Positions 2,999-33,823 of a stretch of DNA of 33,865 bases are shown in pieces. Under the pieces are notes generated by a model, which saw nothing but the letters and a program-made list of their open reading frames with translations, searched no databases and was not told the origin of the DNA. Origin of the DNA: Buttiauxella izardii (lineage in GTDB: Bacteria; Pseudomonadota; Gammaproteobacteria; Enterobacterales; Enterobacteriaceae); NCBI RefSeq assembly GCF_003601925.1, contig NZ_QZWH01000026.1, positions 1-33,865 on the forward strand, given 5' to 3'. The translations under genes and the position numbers were made by a program. Position 1 is the stretch's first letter; each line of letters opens with the position of its first letter.

Positions 2999-3056
2999 CC
3001 ACCCTCGCCTTGCTTTAAATCCCCTCTCCTTCAGGGAGAGGGTCAGGGTGAGGGGG
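2999..3056 (+). repeat. Palindromic repeat element A (single hairpin) between dppA and dppB
   Basis: The smallest member of the repeat family in this window. CCCTCTCC (3022-3029), loop TTCA, and GGAGAGGG (3035-3042) form a strong hairpin, flanked on the right by TCAGGGTGAGGG and on the left by a degenerate arm ACCCTCGCC. The right arm read in reverse is CCCTCACCCTGA, matching the TAA-type end of the other elements, so this copy lies inverted. A hairpin here can protect the dppA 3' end and favour binding protein over permease, as REP sequences do in malE-malF. Confidence 0.8.
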
Positions 3057-3126
3057 GTATCTTTTGATTTGTGAGCAATACATCCCGCCACTTTTTAGTG
3101 CCGGGAGATTACAGAGAATCCGGGAT

Positions 3127-7054: not shown

Positions 7055-7063
7055 TTCAAAACG

Positions 7064-7145
7064 CCCTCACCCTAACCCTCTCCCCCAGGAGAGGGAATCT
7101 ACGGTTTTCCCCCTCTCCCTGGGGGAGAGGGCCGGGGTGAGGGGG
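7064..7145 (+). repeat. Palindromic repeat element B (two hairpins)
   Basis: The element begins CCCTCACCCTAACCCTCTCC and ends GAGAGGGCCGGGGTGAGGG; the ends are inverted repeats of each other except that TAA at the left faces CGG at the right. Inside are two CCCTCTCC/GGAGAGGG hairpins joined by a spacer with ACGGTTTTCC. It begins nine bases after the dppF stop. Two hairpins and one spacer make this the simplest complete member of the family. Confidence 0.9.
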
Positions 7146-7167
7146 ACCAACGCTTATCCTGTCGGCT

Positions 7168-18021: not shown

Positions 18022-19017
18022 ATGTGGCAGCGATACAAAACGCTGATAGTGGCAGTATTCGCCTTGATTTTCAGTCACTACGCGCTGGCTGACAGCGCAT
18101 GGGATAGCTACAAATCGCGGTTTTTAATGCCGGATGGGCGGATTGTCGACACCGGTAATAAAAACGTCAGCCACACCGAAGGCCAGGGCTTCGCCATGAT
18201 GATGGCGGTGCAAAACGATGACCGTGACAGCTTCGATAAGATATGGGGCTGGACGAACAAGACCCTGAAAAACCCTGAAAACGGGCTGTTCTACTGGCGT
18301 TATAACCCGGTGGAAGCGCAACCAATCACCGATAAAAACAACGCCACCGATGGCGATACCTTTATCGCGTGGGCGTTGTTAAAAGCCGGGGAAAAGTGGA
18401 GCAACAAAGATTATCTCAACGAGTCCGATGCCATCGCCAAAGCGCTGGTGGCGCGTAACGTGATTCGTTTTGCGGGCTACCAGGTGATGTTGCCCGGCGC
18501 CAAAGGCTTTAACCTCAACAGCTATGTGAACCTCAACCCTTCCTATTTCATCTTTCCCGCCTGGCAGGATTTTGCGAATCGCAGCCATTTAATGGTGTGG
18601 CGAGATTTGATTAACGATGGGCAGAAGCTGCTCGGGAAAATGCAGTTTGGTAATCCTCAACTTCCTTCGGATTGGGTTTCGTTATATTCCGACGGACGAA
18701 CCGTTCCGGCAAAACAGTGGCCTGCACGCTTTAGCTATGATGCGATCCGCGTGCCACTTTATGTGTATTGGTTTAATCACAGTAGCCCGCAACTCCAGAT
18801 TTATAAAGCCTGGTGGGGGCGATATGCCCGTGAGAAAACGCCAGCGTGGGTGAATGTGACAACGGGCGACCCAGCGCCATATATGATGGACGGCGGCTTG
18901 CTGGCAGTGCGTGATTTAGTGCTGCAACCGGCGAATGTTGCGCAACCGCAAATTACCGCGCAGGAAGATTATTATTCTGCGAGTTTGAAAATGCTGGTGG
19001 GGTTGGCGGTGAAGTGA
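18022..19017 (+). CDS. bcsZ: BcsZ, periplasmic endoglucanase (GH8)
   Basis: Family GH8 endo-1,4-beta-glucanase (CMCax/YhjM type) that trims cellulose in the periplasm and tunes output. It has 331 residues with a signal peptide ending ALA at about 23. The catalytic acid is Glu53 in SHTEGQGFAM and the likely base is Asp240 in SYDAIRVPLYVYW; NATDGDTFIAW (about 107-117) is the third conserved substrate-cleft motif. The length is shorter than E. coli BcsZ (368) but the domain is complete. AGGTG lies before the ATG, nine bases after bcsD. It is the last gene of the operon and is followed two bases later by repeat array C. Confidence 0.97.
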   Translation: MWQRYKTLIVAVFALIFSHYALADSAWDSYKSRFLMPDGRIVDTGNKNVSHTEGQGFAMMMAVQNDDRDSFDKIWGWTNKTLKNPENGLFYWRYNPVEAQPITDKNNATDGDTFIAWALLKAGEKWSNKDYLNESDAIAKALVARNVIRFAGYQVMLPGAKGFNLNSYVNLNPSYFIFPAWQDFANRSHLMVWRDLINDGQKLLGKMQFGNPQLPSDWVSLYSDGRTVPAKQWPARFSYDAIRVPLYVYWFNHSSPQLQIYKAWWGRYAREKTPAWVNVTTGDPAPYMMDGGLLAVRDLVLQPANVAQPQITAQEDYYSASLKMLVGLAVK

Positions 19018-19019
19018 CG

Positions 19020-19164
19020 CCCTCACCCTAACCCTCTCCCCCAGGAGAGGGGATAAACCGTTTTCGCCTTCACCCTCAGGAGAGAGGATAAACCGTTTTT
19101 TGCCTTCACCCTCAGGAGAGGGGATCGATCTCCTTCTCCCTCAGGGAGAAGGCCGGGATGAGGG
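19020..19164 (+). repeat. Palindromic repeat array C (four hairpin units) beside the nuclease gene
   Basis: It begins CCCTCACCCTAACCCTCTCC two bases after the bcsZ stop and ends GAAGGCCGGGATGAGGG at 19164. Between the ends, AGGAGAG units start at 19043, 19078 and 19114 (periods 35 and 36) with spacers GATAAACCGTTTT twice and a diverged GATCGATCTCC. The internal left arms have drifted to CTTCACCCTC. The right end lies directly against the longest open frame of the DUF559 gene (TTG at 19165) and 76 bases before its likely ATG. Confidence 0.9.
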
Positions 19165-19239
19165 TTGTTTTTCTCGAGCCACTTTCCAAAATTCCCCCCG
19201 CAATCTGACAACACCGAAAAACCTCGCCACCATCCCCCA

Positions 19240-19632
19240 ATGGATAAAAAACTCGTCACCTACGCCAAAACTCTGCGCCAGAACATGACACCGCAAGAAC
19301 AACTTCTGTGGCGGTTTTTGCGCAACCGACACTTTGCTCACTATAAATTCCGACGCCAACATCCTGTTGGCCCATTCATTCTCGATTTCGCCTGCCTACG
19401 CCCCAAAGTTGCCATTGAACTAGACGGGGGTCAGCATGATGAAAATAGACACTATGACGAAAACAGAACGCTGTGGCTCGAAAGCCGGGGTTGGGTCGTC
19501 TTACGCTACTGGAATAACGAATTAACAGAGAATACTGATGGAGTGCTGACGGCAATATTTGATACGTTGCGCGCCCAGTCGGTTTCGCACCCCCTAAAAA
19601 CCGCCACAATGCAGTATACTCAGCCTGCATAA
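19240..19632 (+). CDS. DUF559 domain protein, Vsr-like endonuclease fold
   Basis: A 130-residue protein of the DUF559 family, related in fold to the very-short-patch repair endonuclease Vsr and other PD-(D/E)XK-type nucleases. Visible: LRQNMTPQEQLLWRFLRNR (12-30), FRRQHPVGPFILDF with Asp49, KVAIELDGGQH (56-66) with Glu60 and His66, and GWVVLRYWNNEL (84-95). The ATG at 19240 gives the usual family length; the frame could extend to a TTG at 19165, but those residues look like translated spacer. No clear ribosome site. It is inserted between bcsZ and hmsP, absent at that place in E. coli, and its 5' side is bounded by repeat array C. True substrate and role are unknown. Confidence 0.85.
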   Translation: MDKKLVTYAKTLRQNMTPQEQLLWRFLRNRHFAHYKFRRQHPVGPFILDFACLRPKVAIELDGGQHDENRHYDENRTLWLESRGWVVLRYWNNELTENTDGVLTAIFDTLRAQSVSHPLKTATMQYTQPA

Positions 19633-24818: not shown

Positions 24819-24824
24819 TATTTG

Positions 24825-24966
24825 CCCTCACCCTAACCCTCTCCCCCAGGAGAGGGAATCGACCAGCTTTCTCTACAGGAGAGGGAATTGACCGGTTTTC
24901 TCTACAGGTGAGGGAATTGGTCGGTTTTCTCCCTCTCCCTGAGGGAGAGGGCCGGGGTGAGGGGGG
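24825..24966 (+). repeat. Palindromic repeat array D (four hairpin units)
   Basis: It begins CCCTCACCCTAACCCTCTCC six bases after yhjJ and ends GAGAGGGCCGGGGTGAGGG plus extra Gs, three bases before the kdgK stop, so it fills the gap between two convergent genes. AGGAGAGGG-type units start at 24848, 24877 and 24906 (period 29), then the last full hairpin at about 24931-24950. Spacers read AATCGACCAGCTTTC, AATTGACCGGTTTTC and AATTGGTCGGTTTTC. The shorter period reflects internal left arms reduced to CTCTAC. Confidence 0.92.
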
Positions 24967-26973: not shown

Positions 26974-29040
26974 ATGACTAAAACTGGAAAAATTGTAAGC
27001 GGTGTCGTCGGGGTTTTATTGTTGTTGGTTGTGGTGGCAATCATCGTGATTGCGACGTTTGACTGGAATCGGCTCAAACCGACCATCAACCAAAAAGTCT
27101 CGACAGAACTTAACCGCCCGTTCGCTATTCGTGGCGATCTCGGCGTGGTTTGGGAGCGAAATAAAGAAGAAACCGGCTGGCGCAGTTGGGTGCCGTGGCC
27201 GCACGTTCATGCTGAAGATATTATTCTCGGCAACCCGCCTGAGATTCCTGAAGTGACGATGGTGCACCTGCCGCGCGTTGATGCCACGCTGGCACCGCTC
27301 GCGCTGCTCACCAAAACCGTCTATATCCCGTGGATTAAGCTCGTGCAGCCCGATGCGCGGATTATTCGTCTGTCGGAAAAAAACAATAACTGGACGTTTA
27401 ACTTAGCCTCCGACGGGACGAAAGATCCCAACCAGCCGCCGTCGGCCTGGTCATTCAAGCTGGACAATATTCTTTTCGATAAAGGCCGCATCGCAGTTAA
27501 CGACAAAGTCACCAAAGCGGATATTGAAATCCTCGTCGATCCGCTCGGTAAACCGCTGCCGTTTAGCGAAGTCGAAGGGAAAAAGCCCAAAGGCAAAGAC
27601 GCCGCGAAAGCCGGGGATTATGTCTTTGGCCTGAAAATGAAAGGCCGCTATAACGGTGCGCCGCTGGAAGGCAGCGGCAAAATAGGCGGCATGTTGGCGC
27701 TACGCAGCGAAGGTGAAACCGCCTTCCCGGTGCAGGCGGATGTGCATTCTGGCAATTCCCGCGTGGCATTTATCGGCACCATTAACGACCCGATGAAAAT
27801 GGGCGGCGTCGATTTACAGCTTAAATTCTCCGGCGACTCGCTGGGCAATCTCTACGATTTAACCGGCGTGCTGCTGCCGGACACGCCGCCGTTTGAAACC
27901 GACGGCCATTTGCTGGCAAAAATCGACACCGAAAAAGGCTCAGTCTTCCGCTATCAAAACTTTAACGGACGCATTGGCGACAGCGACATTCACGGTTCGC
28001 TGACCTACTCGCAGGGCAAACCGCGCCCGAAACTCGAAGGCGATCTGGAATCTAAACAGCTGCGACTTGCGGATCTCGGCCCTTTAATTGGCGTGGATTC
28101 GGGCAAAGGCGCGCAGCAAAGCAAAAAGTCAGAGCAGGCAAAAGGCGAGAAAACGAATCAGCCCGCCGACAAAGTCCTGCCGTATGACCGCTTCGAAACC
28201 GACAAATGGGATGTGATGGACGCCGACGTGCGCTTTAAAGGCGGGCGTATCGAACACAGCGGCACGCTGCCGCTGAGCAACCTCAACACTCATGTGATTC
28301 TCAAAGATGCCGACCTGCGTCTTGCACCGCTGAAATTCGGCATGGCGAATGGCACCATCAGCGCCAATATTCACCTTGAAGGAGACAAAAAGCCGATGCG
28401 CGGCACGGCGGATATTCAGGCGCGACGTTTGCAGCTCAAACAGTTAATGCCGAAAGTGGAGTCGATGCAGAAAACCCTCGGCGAGCTAAACGGTGATGCC
28501 GATTTGCGCGGGCGCGGTAACTCCGTCGCCGAGCTTTTGGGCACCAGCGACGGCAACCTGAAACTGCTGATGAACGATGGATTAATCAGCCGCAACCTGA
28601 TGGAAATCGTCGGCTTAAACGTCGGGAACTACATCGTCGGGCAAATCTTCGGTGATGACGAAGTGCGGATTAACTGCGCGGCGGCAAACCTTGATTTACG
28701 CGGTGGCGTGGCGACACCACGGATATTCGCATTCGATACCGAGAACGCGCTGATTAACGTCACCGGGACGACGAACTTTGCCACTGAACGGCTTGATTTG
28801 ACCATCGACCCGGAAAGCAAAGGGATCCGCATTATCACGCTGCGTTCGCCGCTGTATGTGCGTGGGACGTTTAAGAACCCGGATGCGGGGGTGAAAGCCG
28901 GGCCGCTGATTGCCCGTGGCGCGGTGGCTGCGGCCCTGGCGACGCTGGTGACGCCAGCCGCTGCGTTGCTGGCACTGATTTCGCCGTCAGAAGGCAGCGA
29001 TAATCAGTGCAGCCGTATTTTGGGGCAGATGAAGAAGTAA
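26974..29040 (+). CDS. yhjG: YhjG, AsmA-family inner-membrane protein
   Basis: AsmA-like protein of 688 residues (about 690 in E. coli). The N-terminal membrane helix (about 8-29, VSGVVGVLLLLVVVAIIVI) is followed by a short DWNRLKP segment and a long periplasmic region of beta-rich AsmA/TamB-like repeats; GLISRNLMEIVGLNVGNYIV and FKNPDAGVKAGPLIARGAVA near the C-terminus are typical of the AsmA C-terminal domain. AsmA-like proteins are implicated in phospholipid movement to the outer membrane; the exact role of YhjG is unsettled. A GGGGGCAAGGC leader precedes the ATG. Repeat array E begins two bases after the stop. Confidence 0.94.
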   Translation: MTKTGKIVSGVVGVLLLLVVVAIIVIATFDWNRLKPTINQKVSTELNRPFAIRGDLGVVWERNKEETGWRSWVPWPHVHAEDIILGNPPEIPEVTMVHLPRVDATLAPLALLTKTVYIPWIKLVQPDARIIRLSEKNNNWTFNLASDGTKDPNQPPSAWSFKLDNILFDKGRIAVNDKVTKADIEILVDPLGKPLPFSEVEGKKPKGKDAAKAGDYVFGLKMKGRYNGAPLEGSGKIGGMLALRSEGETAFPVQADVHSGNSRVAFIGTINDPMKMGGVDLQLKFSGDSLGNLYDLTGVLLPDTPPFETDGHLLAKIDTEKGSVFRYQNFNGRIGDSDIHGSLTYSQGKPRPKLEGDLESKQLRLADLGPLIGVDSGKGAQQSKKSEQAKGEKTNQPADKVLPYDRFETDKWDVMDADVRFKGGRIEHSGTLPLSNLNTHVILKDADLRLAPLKFGMANGTISANIHLEGDKKPMRGTADIQARRLQLKQLMPKVESMQKTLGELNGDADLRGRGNSVAELLGTSDGNLKLLMNDGLISRNLMEIVGLNVGNYIVGQIFGDDEVRINCAAANLDLRGGVATPRIFAFDTENALINVTGTTNFATERLDLTIDPESKGIRIITLRSPLYVRGTFKNPDAGVKAGPLIARGAVAAALATLVTPAAALLALISPSEGSDNQCSRILGQMKK

Positions 29041-29042
29041 CA

Positions 29043-29196
29043 CCCTCACCCTAACCCTCTCCCTGAGGGAGAGGGGATCGCCCGGTTTTTTCCCTATCCT
29101 GAGGGAGAGGGGATCGCTCGGTTTTCTCCCTATCCAGGGGGAGAGGGGATTGACTGGTTTTCTCCCTCTCCTTTGGGAGAGGGCCGGGGTGAGGGG
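29043..29196 (+). repeat. Palindromic repeat array E (four hairpin units)
   Basis: The most regular copy. It begins CCCTCACCCTAACCCTCTCC two bases after the yhjG stop and ends GAGAGGGCCGGGGTGAGGGG seven bases before the yhjE stop. The GGGAGAGGG units recur at 29067, 29103, 29139 and 29175, an exact 36-base period. Spacers are GATCGCCCGGTTTTTT, GATCGCTCGGTTTTCT and GATTGACTGGTTTTCT. It fills the space between convergent genes. Confidence 0.93.
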
Positions 29197-29203
29197 AAAT
29201 AAA

Positions 29204-30529
29204 CTAAAGCGACAAATGACGCGTCTCTTTCGACACCAACAGCGCAACCAGCGTAATCGCTGACATCGCCGCCAGATACAAGCCGACGTAGAACAAGCCG
29301 TAATTCGCCTGCAACCAGGTGGCGATATACGGCGCGACAGACGCACCCAGAATCGACGCCACGTTATAGGAGAACGACGCTCCGGTATAACGCACTTCGG
29401 TTGGGAACAACTCTGGCAGCAGCGCGCCCATTGGGCCGAAGGTCAAACCCATCAGGCTCAGGCCAATCAGCAGGAATGCCATTACCAGCGTCGGGTTACC
29501 GGAACCTAACAGTGGCTGGAACACCGCTAACGCGAACACAATCATCAGGCTGGTGATCACAATCATGCACTTACGGCGGCCAAATTTATCCGCCAGATAA
29601 CCGGCAATCGGCACCATCACGCCAAAACCAATCACCGCCATCATCAACATCCACAACACATCGTTGCGTGAGAATCCGAGGCCTTTAGGCACCGCAGCGG
29701 TGCTGAACGTCATGGAATAAACCGTCATGATGTAGAACAGCGTGTAAGTCGCCAGCATGATAAACGTGCCGATGATCGTTGCTTTCAGGTGTTTGGTCAG
29801 CAGCGTTCCCAATGGGATTTTCACCTGCTTGCCCGCTTTGGCTATTTTGGCGAACACCGGGGTTTCATGCAGCGAAACGCGCACATACAGGCCGATAATC
29901 ACCAGCACTGCAGAAAGAATAAACGGCACGCGCCAACCCCAGGACATGAACTGCTCGTCGGTCAGCAGCCAGGAAAGCAGCAGGAAAGTGCCGTTGGCAA
30001 AGAAGAAGCCGATGGGCGCGCCGAGTTGCGGGAATGAACCGTACAGCGCACGTTTGCGTGGTGGCGCGTTCTCGGTTGCCAGCAATGCTGCGCCGCCCCA
30101 TTCCCCGCCCAGACCCAAACCCTGGCCGAAGCGTGCCAGCGCCAGCAGCATTGGCGCCAGAACGCCGATGGTTTCATAGCTCGGCAGCAGGCCGATAACC
30201 ACGGTAGACACACCCATCGTCAGAAGTGATGCCACTAAAGTCACTTTGCGACCGACCCGGTCACCAAAATGGCCGAATAGCGCGGAGCCAATCGGACGCG
30301 CCACAAAGGCAATCGCGAAGGTGGCCAGCGACTGTAGCGTGGCGGCGGTTGGGTCACCTTGTGGGAAGAAAATATGCGGGAAGACGATTACCGCCGCAGT
30401 GGCATAAATATAGAAATCGAAGAATTCGATAGCGGTGCCGACGAGCGAGGCGACAACAACTTTTCCGCGTGAGTTGACGGGCGTGGCGTCAGTTTCGGTA
30501 TTGACTGGATTTGCGATGGTGGCTTGCAT
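29204..30529 (-). CDS. yhjE: YhjE, MFS transporter of the metabolite:H+ symporter family
   Basis: Twelve-helix inner-membrane transporter of the major facilitator superfamily, MHS group, 441 residues against 440 in E. coli, with close identity. The N-terminal IEFFDFYIYATAA starts helix 1. The MFS motif between helices 2 and 3 is GHFGDRVGRK (86-95). WGGAALLATENAPPRKRALYGSFPQLGAP is the MHS signature in the loop after helix 4, and ELFPTEVRYTGASFSYN marks the C-terminal half. The substrate is not known; relatives carry carboxylates, proline/betaine or alpha-ketoglutarate. The gene lies downstream of yhjD on the minus strand with a 320-base gap containing a REP element. Confidence 0.95.
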   Translation of the reverse strand: MQATIANPVNTETDATPVNSRGKVVVASLVGTAIEFFDFYIYATAAVIVFPHIFFPQGDPTAATLQSLATFAIAFVARPIGSALFGHFGDRVGRKVTLVASLLTMGVSTVVIGLLPSYETIGVLAPMLLALARFGQGLGLGGEWGGAALLATENAPPRKRALYGSFPQLGAPIGFFFANGTFLLLSWLLTDEQFMSWGWRVPFILSAVLVIIGLYVRVSLHETPVFAKIAKAGKQVKIPLGTLLTKHLKATIIGTFIMLATYTLFYIMTVYSMTFSTAAVPKGLGFSRNDVLWMLMMAVIGFGVMVPIAGYLADKFGRRKCMIVITSLMIVFALAVFQPLLGSGNPTLVMAFLLIGLSLMGLTFGPMGALLPELFPTEVRYTGASFSYNVASILGASVAPYIATWLQANYGLFYVGLYLAAMSAITLVALLVSKETRHLSL

Positions 30530-30849
30530 AATTTTTTCTTATTTTAGCGAACGAAGGGCCATATTACGCACAGCAAATAGCGCATTTCAACGCACGCTTA
30601 CGCGTGAAGCTGTGCGATTAACGAGCAATGAGAGGATAATTTTTAGTCCAGAAAATAAATGTCTATGTCGTGCTTCTCACTTTTAAAAATTCAGTGAATA
30701 AAACTGCTTTTAGGTTAAATAAAAGTTACAGGCTGGATTTATGTGCTGGAAGCGCGGGAGGGGGAAGTTTTCGTAGGGCGGATAAGCGCAAGCGTCATCC
30801 GCCGGAAAGTGTCGGATGACGCAGGCTTATCCGACCTACGGATTGCAGA
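30530..30849. other. Intergenic region yhjD-yhjE (320 bases)
   Basis: No gene is seen. It contains a REP-type palindrome (30772-30840) near the yhjD 3' end and an AT-rich stretch (about 30610-30735) that probably holds the yhjE promoter. Open frames across it are repeat translation or shadows. Confidence 0.6.
30772..30840. repeat. REP pair (BIME-like palindrome)
   Basis: Two REP-like units face each other: CGTAGGGCGGATAAGCG with GTCATCCGCC on the left, and GTCGGATGACGCAGG with CTTATCCGACCTACG on the right, separated by GGAAAGT. The outermost CGTAGG/CCTACG also pair. This is the enterobacterial REP core (GGATAAGCG/CTTATCC), placed ten bases after the yhjD stop on that gene's 3' side. It is unrelated in sequence to repeat family A-E. 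Confidence 0.85.
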
Positions 30850-33763: not shown

Positions 33764-33796
33764 TGCCGGATGACGCTGCGCTTATCCGGCCTACAA
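33764..33796. repeat. Single REP element
   Basis: TGCCGGATGACGCTGCGC followed by TTATCCGGCCTACAA is a classic enterobacterial REP palindrome; GCCGGAT (33765-33771) pairs with ATCCGGC (33784-33790). It lies between the SDR stop and the end of a convergent minus-strand gene, the usual place for REPs. Confidence 0.92.
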
Positions 33797-33823
33797 ATGC
33801 TGCGAGTCGGGAGACAGTTCCGT

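Follow-up and report, generated by a model that had tools for sequence, protein, structure and literature searches.

A tract of short palindromic repeats and a small gene for a DUF559 nuclease lie side by side in the genome of Buttiauxella izardii. Do the two belong together? A sequence-only reading of the window (the whole stretch of DNA analysed, 33,865 nucleotides) had proposed that they are partners, as RAYT proteins and REP sequences are, with the repeat enriched beside DUF559 genes and more abundant in genomes that carry one.

The array and the DUF559 frame sit between two genes that we take to be bcsZ and hmsP, the bcsZ-like stop codon being at 19017. Two units of the array (19020-19164) look intact, with degenerate ones in between (Table 1), and the frame follows directly, as the sequence-only reading had it: the product has 155 aa when read from an in-frame TTG at 19165 and 130 aa from the ATG at 19240. 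This is the only DUF559 match in the genome. The left unit consists of a head, CCCTCACCC (19020-19028), a TAA spacer (19029-19031) and a stem-loop (19032-19051); the right unit runs from stem-loop (19132-19152) through a CCG spacer (19153-19155) to a head, GGATGAGGG (19156-19164), directed toward the gene. The array is built on a CCCTCACCC/CCCTCTCC palindrome. Each unit comprises a stem-loop (e.g. CCCTCTCC..GGAGAGGG) and a head (GGGTGAGGG), the head being similar to a third copy of the arm. The same family does recur at four further sites in the window, as first read. A fixed rule detects nine polypyrimidine palindromes in the window, against none or one in each of 20 first-order Markov surrogates; no Rfam family matches the window at gathering score.

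Table 1. Repeat units, arrays and the nuclease gene in the window.
Feature	Position	Strand	Basis
Solo right-type unit	3022..3058	.	Family D4; palindrome 3022-3042; single-hairpin fold, z -1.7
Minimal doublet of a TAA left unit and a CCG right unit with a short spacer between	7064..7144	.	Repeat families, doublet scan, fold
Left (TAA-type) repeat unit	19020..19051	.	Sequence, repeat families D1/D5/D6, palindrome scan
Degenerate inner array units, ~36-bp spacing	19067..19131	.	Family D1 copies at 19067 and 19103
Right (CCG-type) unit, closest to gene	19132..19164	.	Sequence, repeat families, palindrome scan
DUF559 (PF04480) nuclease gene	19240..19632	+	Pfam, alignment of 63, AlphaFold2 model, Foldseek
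Array, TAA-type left unit to CCG-type right unit	24825..24964	.	Repeat families, doublet scan, fold
Array, TAA-type left unit to CCG-type right unit	29043..29196	.	Repeat families, doublet scan, palindrome scan

The solo unit is placed between two genes that are presumably dppA and dppB, and the array at 24825-24964 lies downstream of what we take to be yhjJ. On the minus strand an open frame (28987-29346) runs through the array at 29043-29196, turning the repeats into tail-like peptides (PLTPALSQRRGRK, PLSLRERVRVR); repeats translated in this way may be a source of odd C-termini in protein databases. The window also holds an inverted pair (30770-30790 and 33777-33797) that, we assume, resembles the classical REP sequence of enterobacteria; the genome itself has no Y1_Tnp match.

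Units often come as doublets. All 16 distinct doublets of the window's type (type A), from a scan that took only those fitting two fixed patterns, combine a T-type spacer (TAA, TGA or TGG) with a C/G-type one (CGG, CGA, CGC or GG), and doublets are therefore directional; a longer doublet list holds at least one exception with two C-type spacers (G001:C11:94056-94137). Folded as single-stranded DNA, the window doublet (7061-7147) gives one long hairpin with its heads paired (z -6.5), and z is -5.1 for the array at 24824-24966 and -3.1 for that at 19020-19166. An extra hairpin within the unit, in the order stem, hairpin, head, is seen at six loci elsewhere (L005, L110, L112, L118, L125 and L129).

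How general is the pairing of gene and palindrome? DUF559 matches at E <= 1e-15 occur in 108 genomes of a phylum sample of 398, and 20 loci were hand-picked from this list, one per genome and without regard to score or flanks, at places not represented among the earlier loci and on contigs allowing 9.8 kb per side. In 19 of the 20 a palindrome lies no more than 150 bp from the gene, and the twentieth (L128) has imperfect ones. Density falls from 6.0/kb within 150 bp of the gene to 1.5/kb at 150-300 bp, 0.5/kb at 300-600 bp and 0 at 600-1200 bp, the outer bins (>1.2 kb) having 0.115, 0.060 and 0.052/kb. These loci hold 231 other open reading frames that reach 100 aa, and only 8 of them have a palindrome as close (Fisher 2.7e-21). 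None was found within 700 bp of a Vsr match at 29 loci of the phylum sample (one short locus was skipped), or within 1 kb of an IS200-like (Y1_Tnp) match at 14 loci, one of which has a palindrome at 1280 bp. The enrichment near DUF559 genes was thus as predicted, whether set against ORFs, Vsr or IS200-like loci. If sites were spread uniformly over the type A genomes, a small gene picked at random would have, on average, a 1.4% chance of a site no further than 250 bp away. Some genomes of the phylum sample (G230, G422, G524 and G457) hold seven or eight DUF559 matches each.

Other scans reached further. Nine loci from relatives came from Alpha- and Gammaproteobacteria, one Methylophilaceae bacterium and one planctomycete; GC-rich palindromes adjoin the gene in eight, seven by detector and the planctomycete by eye, and at several of these eight the palindrome is different in sequence but alike in build. 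The Azospirillum locus (L010) has no palindrome beside its gene, which looks degenerate. The 26 best new loci of a phylum-wide search all have palindromes near the gene (26/26). Of 83 pooled loci, 81 have a perfect palindrome no further than 150 bp from the gene, and imperfect ones are visible by eye at the remaining two. This pool left out L002-L010, L015, L016, L030, L038, L040-L044 and L090, among which L038, L040, L090, L002-L006, L008 and L009 are positive; imperfect units are seen, by eye only, at L007 and at L015 (ycjD of Escherichia coli K-12); and four weak PF04480 matches (L041-L044, in frames of 321, 600, 84 and 1985 aa) have no palindrome within 400 bp. Two more, L016 and L030, have a contig edge just behind the gene and no palindrome on the remaining side, and were left out of judgement; L003 and L035, on contigs of the same length, are probably one locus. 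The palindrome rule was relaxed between scans, from an arm of 8 to an arm of 7, and the fewest C allowed was 4 in the 26-locus, 20-locus and control scans and 3 for the 83-locus pool and the left-out loci.

The units are also oriented. With the gene drawn at the right, the nearest unit mostly reads stem-loop, then G-rich head (GGGGTGAGGG, GGGGAGAGGG, GGGATGGGGG). Among 109 nearest palindromes the head is proximal to the gene in 83, distal in 21 and tied in 5, direction being judged only from G or C content in 16 bases per side.

Copy number was the second prediction, and within the window's family the gene-bearing genomes do hold more. We tabulated the family's genomes of at least 3.5 Mb (117 out of 198), transcribing the counts by hand. 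At least ten repeats are present in all 22 genomes with a type A gene and in 4 of the 95 without (Fisher 4e-20). In this comparison the type A boundary was set after the flanks were known, and there is some circularity in the label, G078 (E 1.7e-34) having been assigned to type B on account of its flanks. The 22 include G038, whose gene is split into two matches, and exclude G078, G136 and G178, which have lower scores, type B flanks (see below) and no type A copies; pooling all full-length DUF559 genes regardless of type, 22 of 25 genomes have at least ten type A copies. Twelve weak matches, with E-values from 1e-15 to 3e-4 and for the most part in long frames, were counted as 'without'. Copies of the pattern CCCTCACCCN{1,5}CCCTCTCC number from 10 to 208 in the 22 genomes, and the four repeat-rich genomes without a type A gene have 72 (G001), 33 (G088), 11 (G077) and 10 (G084). 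The reversed pattern, as a control, matches once over all 198 genomes. Within the genus (12 genomes) a palindrome pattern was also counted: the four carriers of a type A gene have 80, 49, 57 and 107, G005 with its divergent gene has 4, and the genomes that lack the gene have 33, 7, 8, 3, 89, 5 and 7, the 89 belonging to G008.

A second family of the order, probably the Pasteurellaceae (140 genomes, 1.6-2.9 Mb), has a different palindrome, CCTCTTT..AAAGAGG. There the prediction held in part: at least five copies are found in 52 of 69 genomes with DUF559 against 16 of 71 without (p 5e-10), and this did not carry over to the level of the genus, where 1511 of 10000 within-genus shuffles scored as high, which is not significant. 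The association in this family rests mostly on differences between genera. Of the 69 carriers, 17 have fewer than five copies of the single pattern tested; with no significant contrast inside genera, common descent may account for part of the association.

A further result goes beyond what had been predicted: the type of repeat follows the type of nuclease. Five genomes of the window's family (G005, G078, G136, G158 and G178) have divergent, lower-scoring DUF559 genes (E 2.9e-28 to 1.7e-34), and these are flanked by CCCTCCCC/CCTCCCCC-like palindromes (type B), that beside the G158 gene, CCCCTCC, being detected only under the relaxed rule. We ran the type B pattern on 80 genomes: 12 make up the genus, 25 have a full-length gene and 43 are larger genomes without one, the last taken roughly in the order of our genome numbering. 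The type B pattern occurs 85, 53, 132, 28 and 30 times in the five genomes (in the order given), 35 times in G045, which is without a DUF559 match, and 0-3 times in the other 74; reversed, as a control, it is found 9 times in G078 and 0-2 times elsewhere. Type A copies number 0 in G078, G136, G158 and G178 and 4 in G005. Types A and B thus show a double dissociation. At the bcsZ-hmsP site itself, G005 has a type B repeat where its congeners carry type A. All 30 counted genomes of the window's family with a full-length gene have the matching repeat, the 30 being the 22 tabulated as type A, three more from the genus (G002, G003 and G009) and the five of type B.

In the protein tree, three of the divergent proteins, L014 (G005), L037 (G136) and L039 (G178), share a separate branch (SH-aLRT 99); L036 lies elsewhere, and the assignment of its genome, G078, to type B therefore rests on score and flanks; the G158 protein is absent from the tree. 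Mapping stem classes on the tree requires 19 changes against a shuffled mean of 27.6 (the class of L128 was assigned by eye), and so they are clustered overall; the same classes recur on the tree, which does not fit one origin per class. Protein and repeat similarity are correlated (Mantel r 0.35), as linked DNA would be anyway.

Both adjacency (19/20) and copy number (22/22 against 4/95) came out in favour of the proposed partnership. We consider it likely that DUF559 genes and polypyrimidine palindromes form one system, laid out like RAYT and REP and built around a nuclease of the PD-(D/E)XK type (Vsr-like, EDxHD-like). The main rival is that another enzyme moves the repeats, and that DUF559 genes travel with them as passengers or gather beside them in composite elements. 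Repeat-rich genomes without the gene (G001, G088, G077, G084, G045 and G008) are what such an arrangement would produce. However, the matching of nuclease and repeat types, the presence of the matching repeat in every one of the 30 genomes just described and the absence of Y1_Tnp from 11 of 14 genomes all speak against it, and we think it unlikely.

What kind of enzyme is encoded? The window protein matches PF04480 (DUF559) with an E-value of 3.7e-40 and 136.6 bits (cut-off 20.6), and also MTES_1575; PF03852 (Vsr) gave no match at E 0.001. It scores 141.7 bits, below the cut-off of 218, against the YcjD equivalog NF007294, which to judge from its name and length is presumably the model of YcjD. 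R13, E20, W24, Q40, E60, D62, G63, H66, D73, R76 and R89 (window-protein numbering) are invariant in an alignment of 63, and the conserved E20, D49, E60, D62, H66 and D73 are intact in the 130-aa form. The invariant E20, D62, H66 and D73 may correspond to the EDxHD motif. According to a review, EDxHD enzymes form a family of homing endonucleases whose mechanism depends on metal and resembles that of restriction enzymes (PMC3943268). An AlphaFold2 model of the window protein (pLDDT 88) has three PDB matches at E <= 0.001 in Foldseek, namely 3hrl, which is an uncharacterised endonuclease-like DUF559 structure, and two chains of the I-Bth0305I catalytic domain (3r3p, 1.8e-4). A sequence profile finds the same structures in the PDB (3hrl at 2.4e-39, 3r3p at 7e-5), the other 17 listed having E-values of at least 0.29.

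The likeness to Vsr raises the prospect that DUF559 proteins are repair endonucleases for deaminated methylcytosine, with the repeats incidental. This draws on Caulobacter VsrA, a DUF559 protein: deletion of vsrA is reported to abolish the SOS response of a methyltransferase mutant, and the authors propose VSP mismatch repair and call for more data (PMC12907096). That report is the sole in vivo study of DUF559 that we found, and Vsr is detected by a YcjD profile according to another paper (PMC1189080). Against this, the window protein matches PF04480 and MTES_1575 rather than PF03852, a separate Vsr gene lies on contig C37 of the window genome, and true Vsr genes of the phylum sample are without palindromes (0/29). 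We judge a pure repair role very unlikely.

We give still less credence to a role in palindrome surveillance, whereby the nuclease would trim or resolve hairpins and cruciforms for genome maintenance and spread nothing. The adjacency and type-matching data fit this too, and cruciforms could plausibly form at the repeats (three window arrays fold with z from -3.1 to -6.5); surveillance alone, however, leaves the much higher copy number of gene-bearing genomes unexplained. A cis-regulatory reading, with the palindromes serving the DUF559 gene as terminators or operators, is hardly credible: they adjoin it, and on both sides in 28 of 83 loci, but tens to hundreds of copies lie elsewhere in the genome and the units have a polarity.

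The gene had been labelled a foreign insert in the sequence-only reading, and that label has to be withdrawn. Among the 12 genomes of the genus, four (G000, G002, G003 and G009) have the DUF559 gene at the bcsZ-hmsP site, and G011 keeps a 3' remnant next to hmsP with a different upstream neighbour. A solo repeat occupies the site in G004, G007 and G010 and a decayed one in G008; in G001 other genes follow a truncated repeat head, and G006 has neither repeat nor gene. Because relatives retain the gene, a remnant or a solo repeat, the gene is no recent foreign insert and looks like an old resident that has been lost several times.

Other insertions are visible in these intervals. Directly behind the truncated head in G001 (L069/L047), at the position of the DUF559 gene in relatives, lies an insert of ~2 kb with several open frames. 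Within the yhjJ-kdgK interval of G003 (L072) an insert with a CTGTCTCTTATACACA end, which we take to be Tn5/IS50-like, splits a palindrome repeat, and G004 (L060) has partly the same insert sequence in place of the repeat.

E. coli offers a view of the element within one species. Type A-like units adjoin both ycjD and fepB in K-12, which therefore has both partners; ycjD, itself a DUF559 gene, has two imperfect units on its 3' side. Neither megablast nor blastn found closer DNA relatives in E. coli genomes, though K-12 has ycjD. At least 80% of the ycjD region is covered in 3333 of 5426 genomes, and at least 80% of the fepB-entC region in 2752 of 5426. In strains R12 and A4 (L152 and L153), which lack a ycjD match next to fabI, TetR-family and RND-efflux genes occupy the place. 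Of 40 fepB-entC matches listed, 20 are whole and 19 are at 76-77%, in two pieces that lie ~186 bp closer together; in three of the 76-77% strains the doublet is cleanly absent and the site shorter. One fepB-entC element is thus a presence/absence polymorphism within E. coli. The sequence at this site suggests a duplication of TAA, and a single site is too little to claim target-site duplication.

How might such a system work? By analogy with RAYTs and homing endonucleases, we hypothesize that the nuclease cuts and mobilises its repeats. It would recognise its own unit, probably as a hairpin or cruciform plus head, and cut this unit or a similar target hydrolytically. Repair of the break from another copy would then spread or expand the unit, as in homing. 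A hydrolytic nuclease forms no covalent intermediate and does no rejoining of its own, and so host recombination would have to complete the strand joining. Once the gene is lost the repeats would remain and decay, and repeats without a gene are to be expected.

A bolder version of this proposal, to which we give roughly even chances, is that DUF559 nucleases, including YcjD of E. coli, are dedicated to mobilising a large class of bacterial palindromic repeats hitherto without an owner, acting by hydrolytic cutting and host repair in a homing-like manner, with no transposase, and hence a second, independently evolved counterpart of the RAYTs. This would provide a testable function for a widespread protein family of unknown function (108 of 398 genomes in the phylum sample) and a candidate owner for palindromic repeats present at tens to hundreds of copies per genome. 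If the nuclease does move the repeats, dispersed repeats can be sustained by an enzyme that hydrolyses DNA and has no strand-transfer chemistry, with a bearing on the origin and persistence of REP-like sequences.

The closest parallel among known systems is that of RAYT with REP, REPIN and BIME sequences ('REPtrons'). Both comprise a single small nuclease gene flanked by palindromic units, both have dispersed units that often form inverted doublets folding into one hairpin, and in both enzyme and repeat co-vary between lineages. The RAYT side of this likeness follows in part two reports (PMC8266576, PMC3733652). The DUF559 enzyme differs in being of the PD-(D/E)XK type and not an HUH Y1 transposase, and its units, by reading, have CCCTCACCC/GGGTGAGGG heads and no GTAG tag, the tag that defines REPs according to PMC3733652. 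As the transposase and the tag are both defining and both missing, we do not class the DUF559 system as RAYT/REP. A RAYT was itself considered as the mobiliser and rejected, PF01797 being absent from the window genome and from 11 of 14 repeat-rich genomes. Of the three positive genomes, one has 3 and another 9 copies of an IS200-like gene of 171 aa; the single gene of the third is in two pieces, which makes 14 match loci for 13 genes.

After 3hrl, the closest characterised fold belongs to I-Bth0305I (PDB 3r3p), an EDxHD homing endonuclease. Unlike these homing endonucleases, DUF559 genes have no intron or intein in view at their loci; most of the loci read encode just one short domain, and dispersed palindromes flank the gene and match it in type. 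Vsr (PF03852) and DUF559 belong to a common broad nuclease superfamily, and such palindromes set the DUF559 genes apart from the Vsr genes. The window's list of open reading frames shows no evident cytosine methyltransferase gene of the kind linked to Vsr.

On the side of the repeats, the type A-like units of K-12 and the BoxC intergenic repeats are both short palindromic E. coli repeats of similar size, BoxC having 56 bp and 32 copies (PMC2267715). We would guess, by description and not by sequence, that they are the same. Palindromic repeats said to be without a dedicated transposase, the CGTC-tagged REPs, are also reported (PMC3733652); their tag differs from that of the DUF559 units, and the main text of that paper contains neither the string CCCTC nor GGGAG. 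Among the matches listed in a search of open-access titles and abstract beginnings, none linked DUF559, COG2852 or YcjD to dispersed palindromes. A dedicated nuclease with palindromes of its own has a precedent in RAYT and REP; the parts found here are neither the one nor the other.
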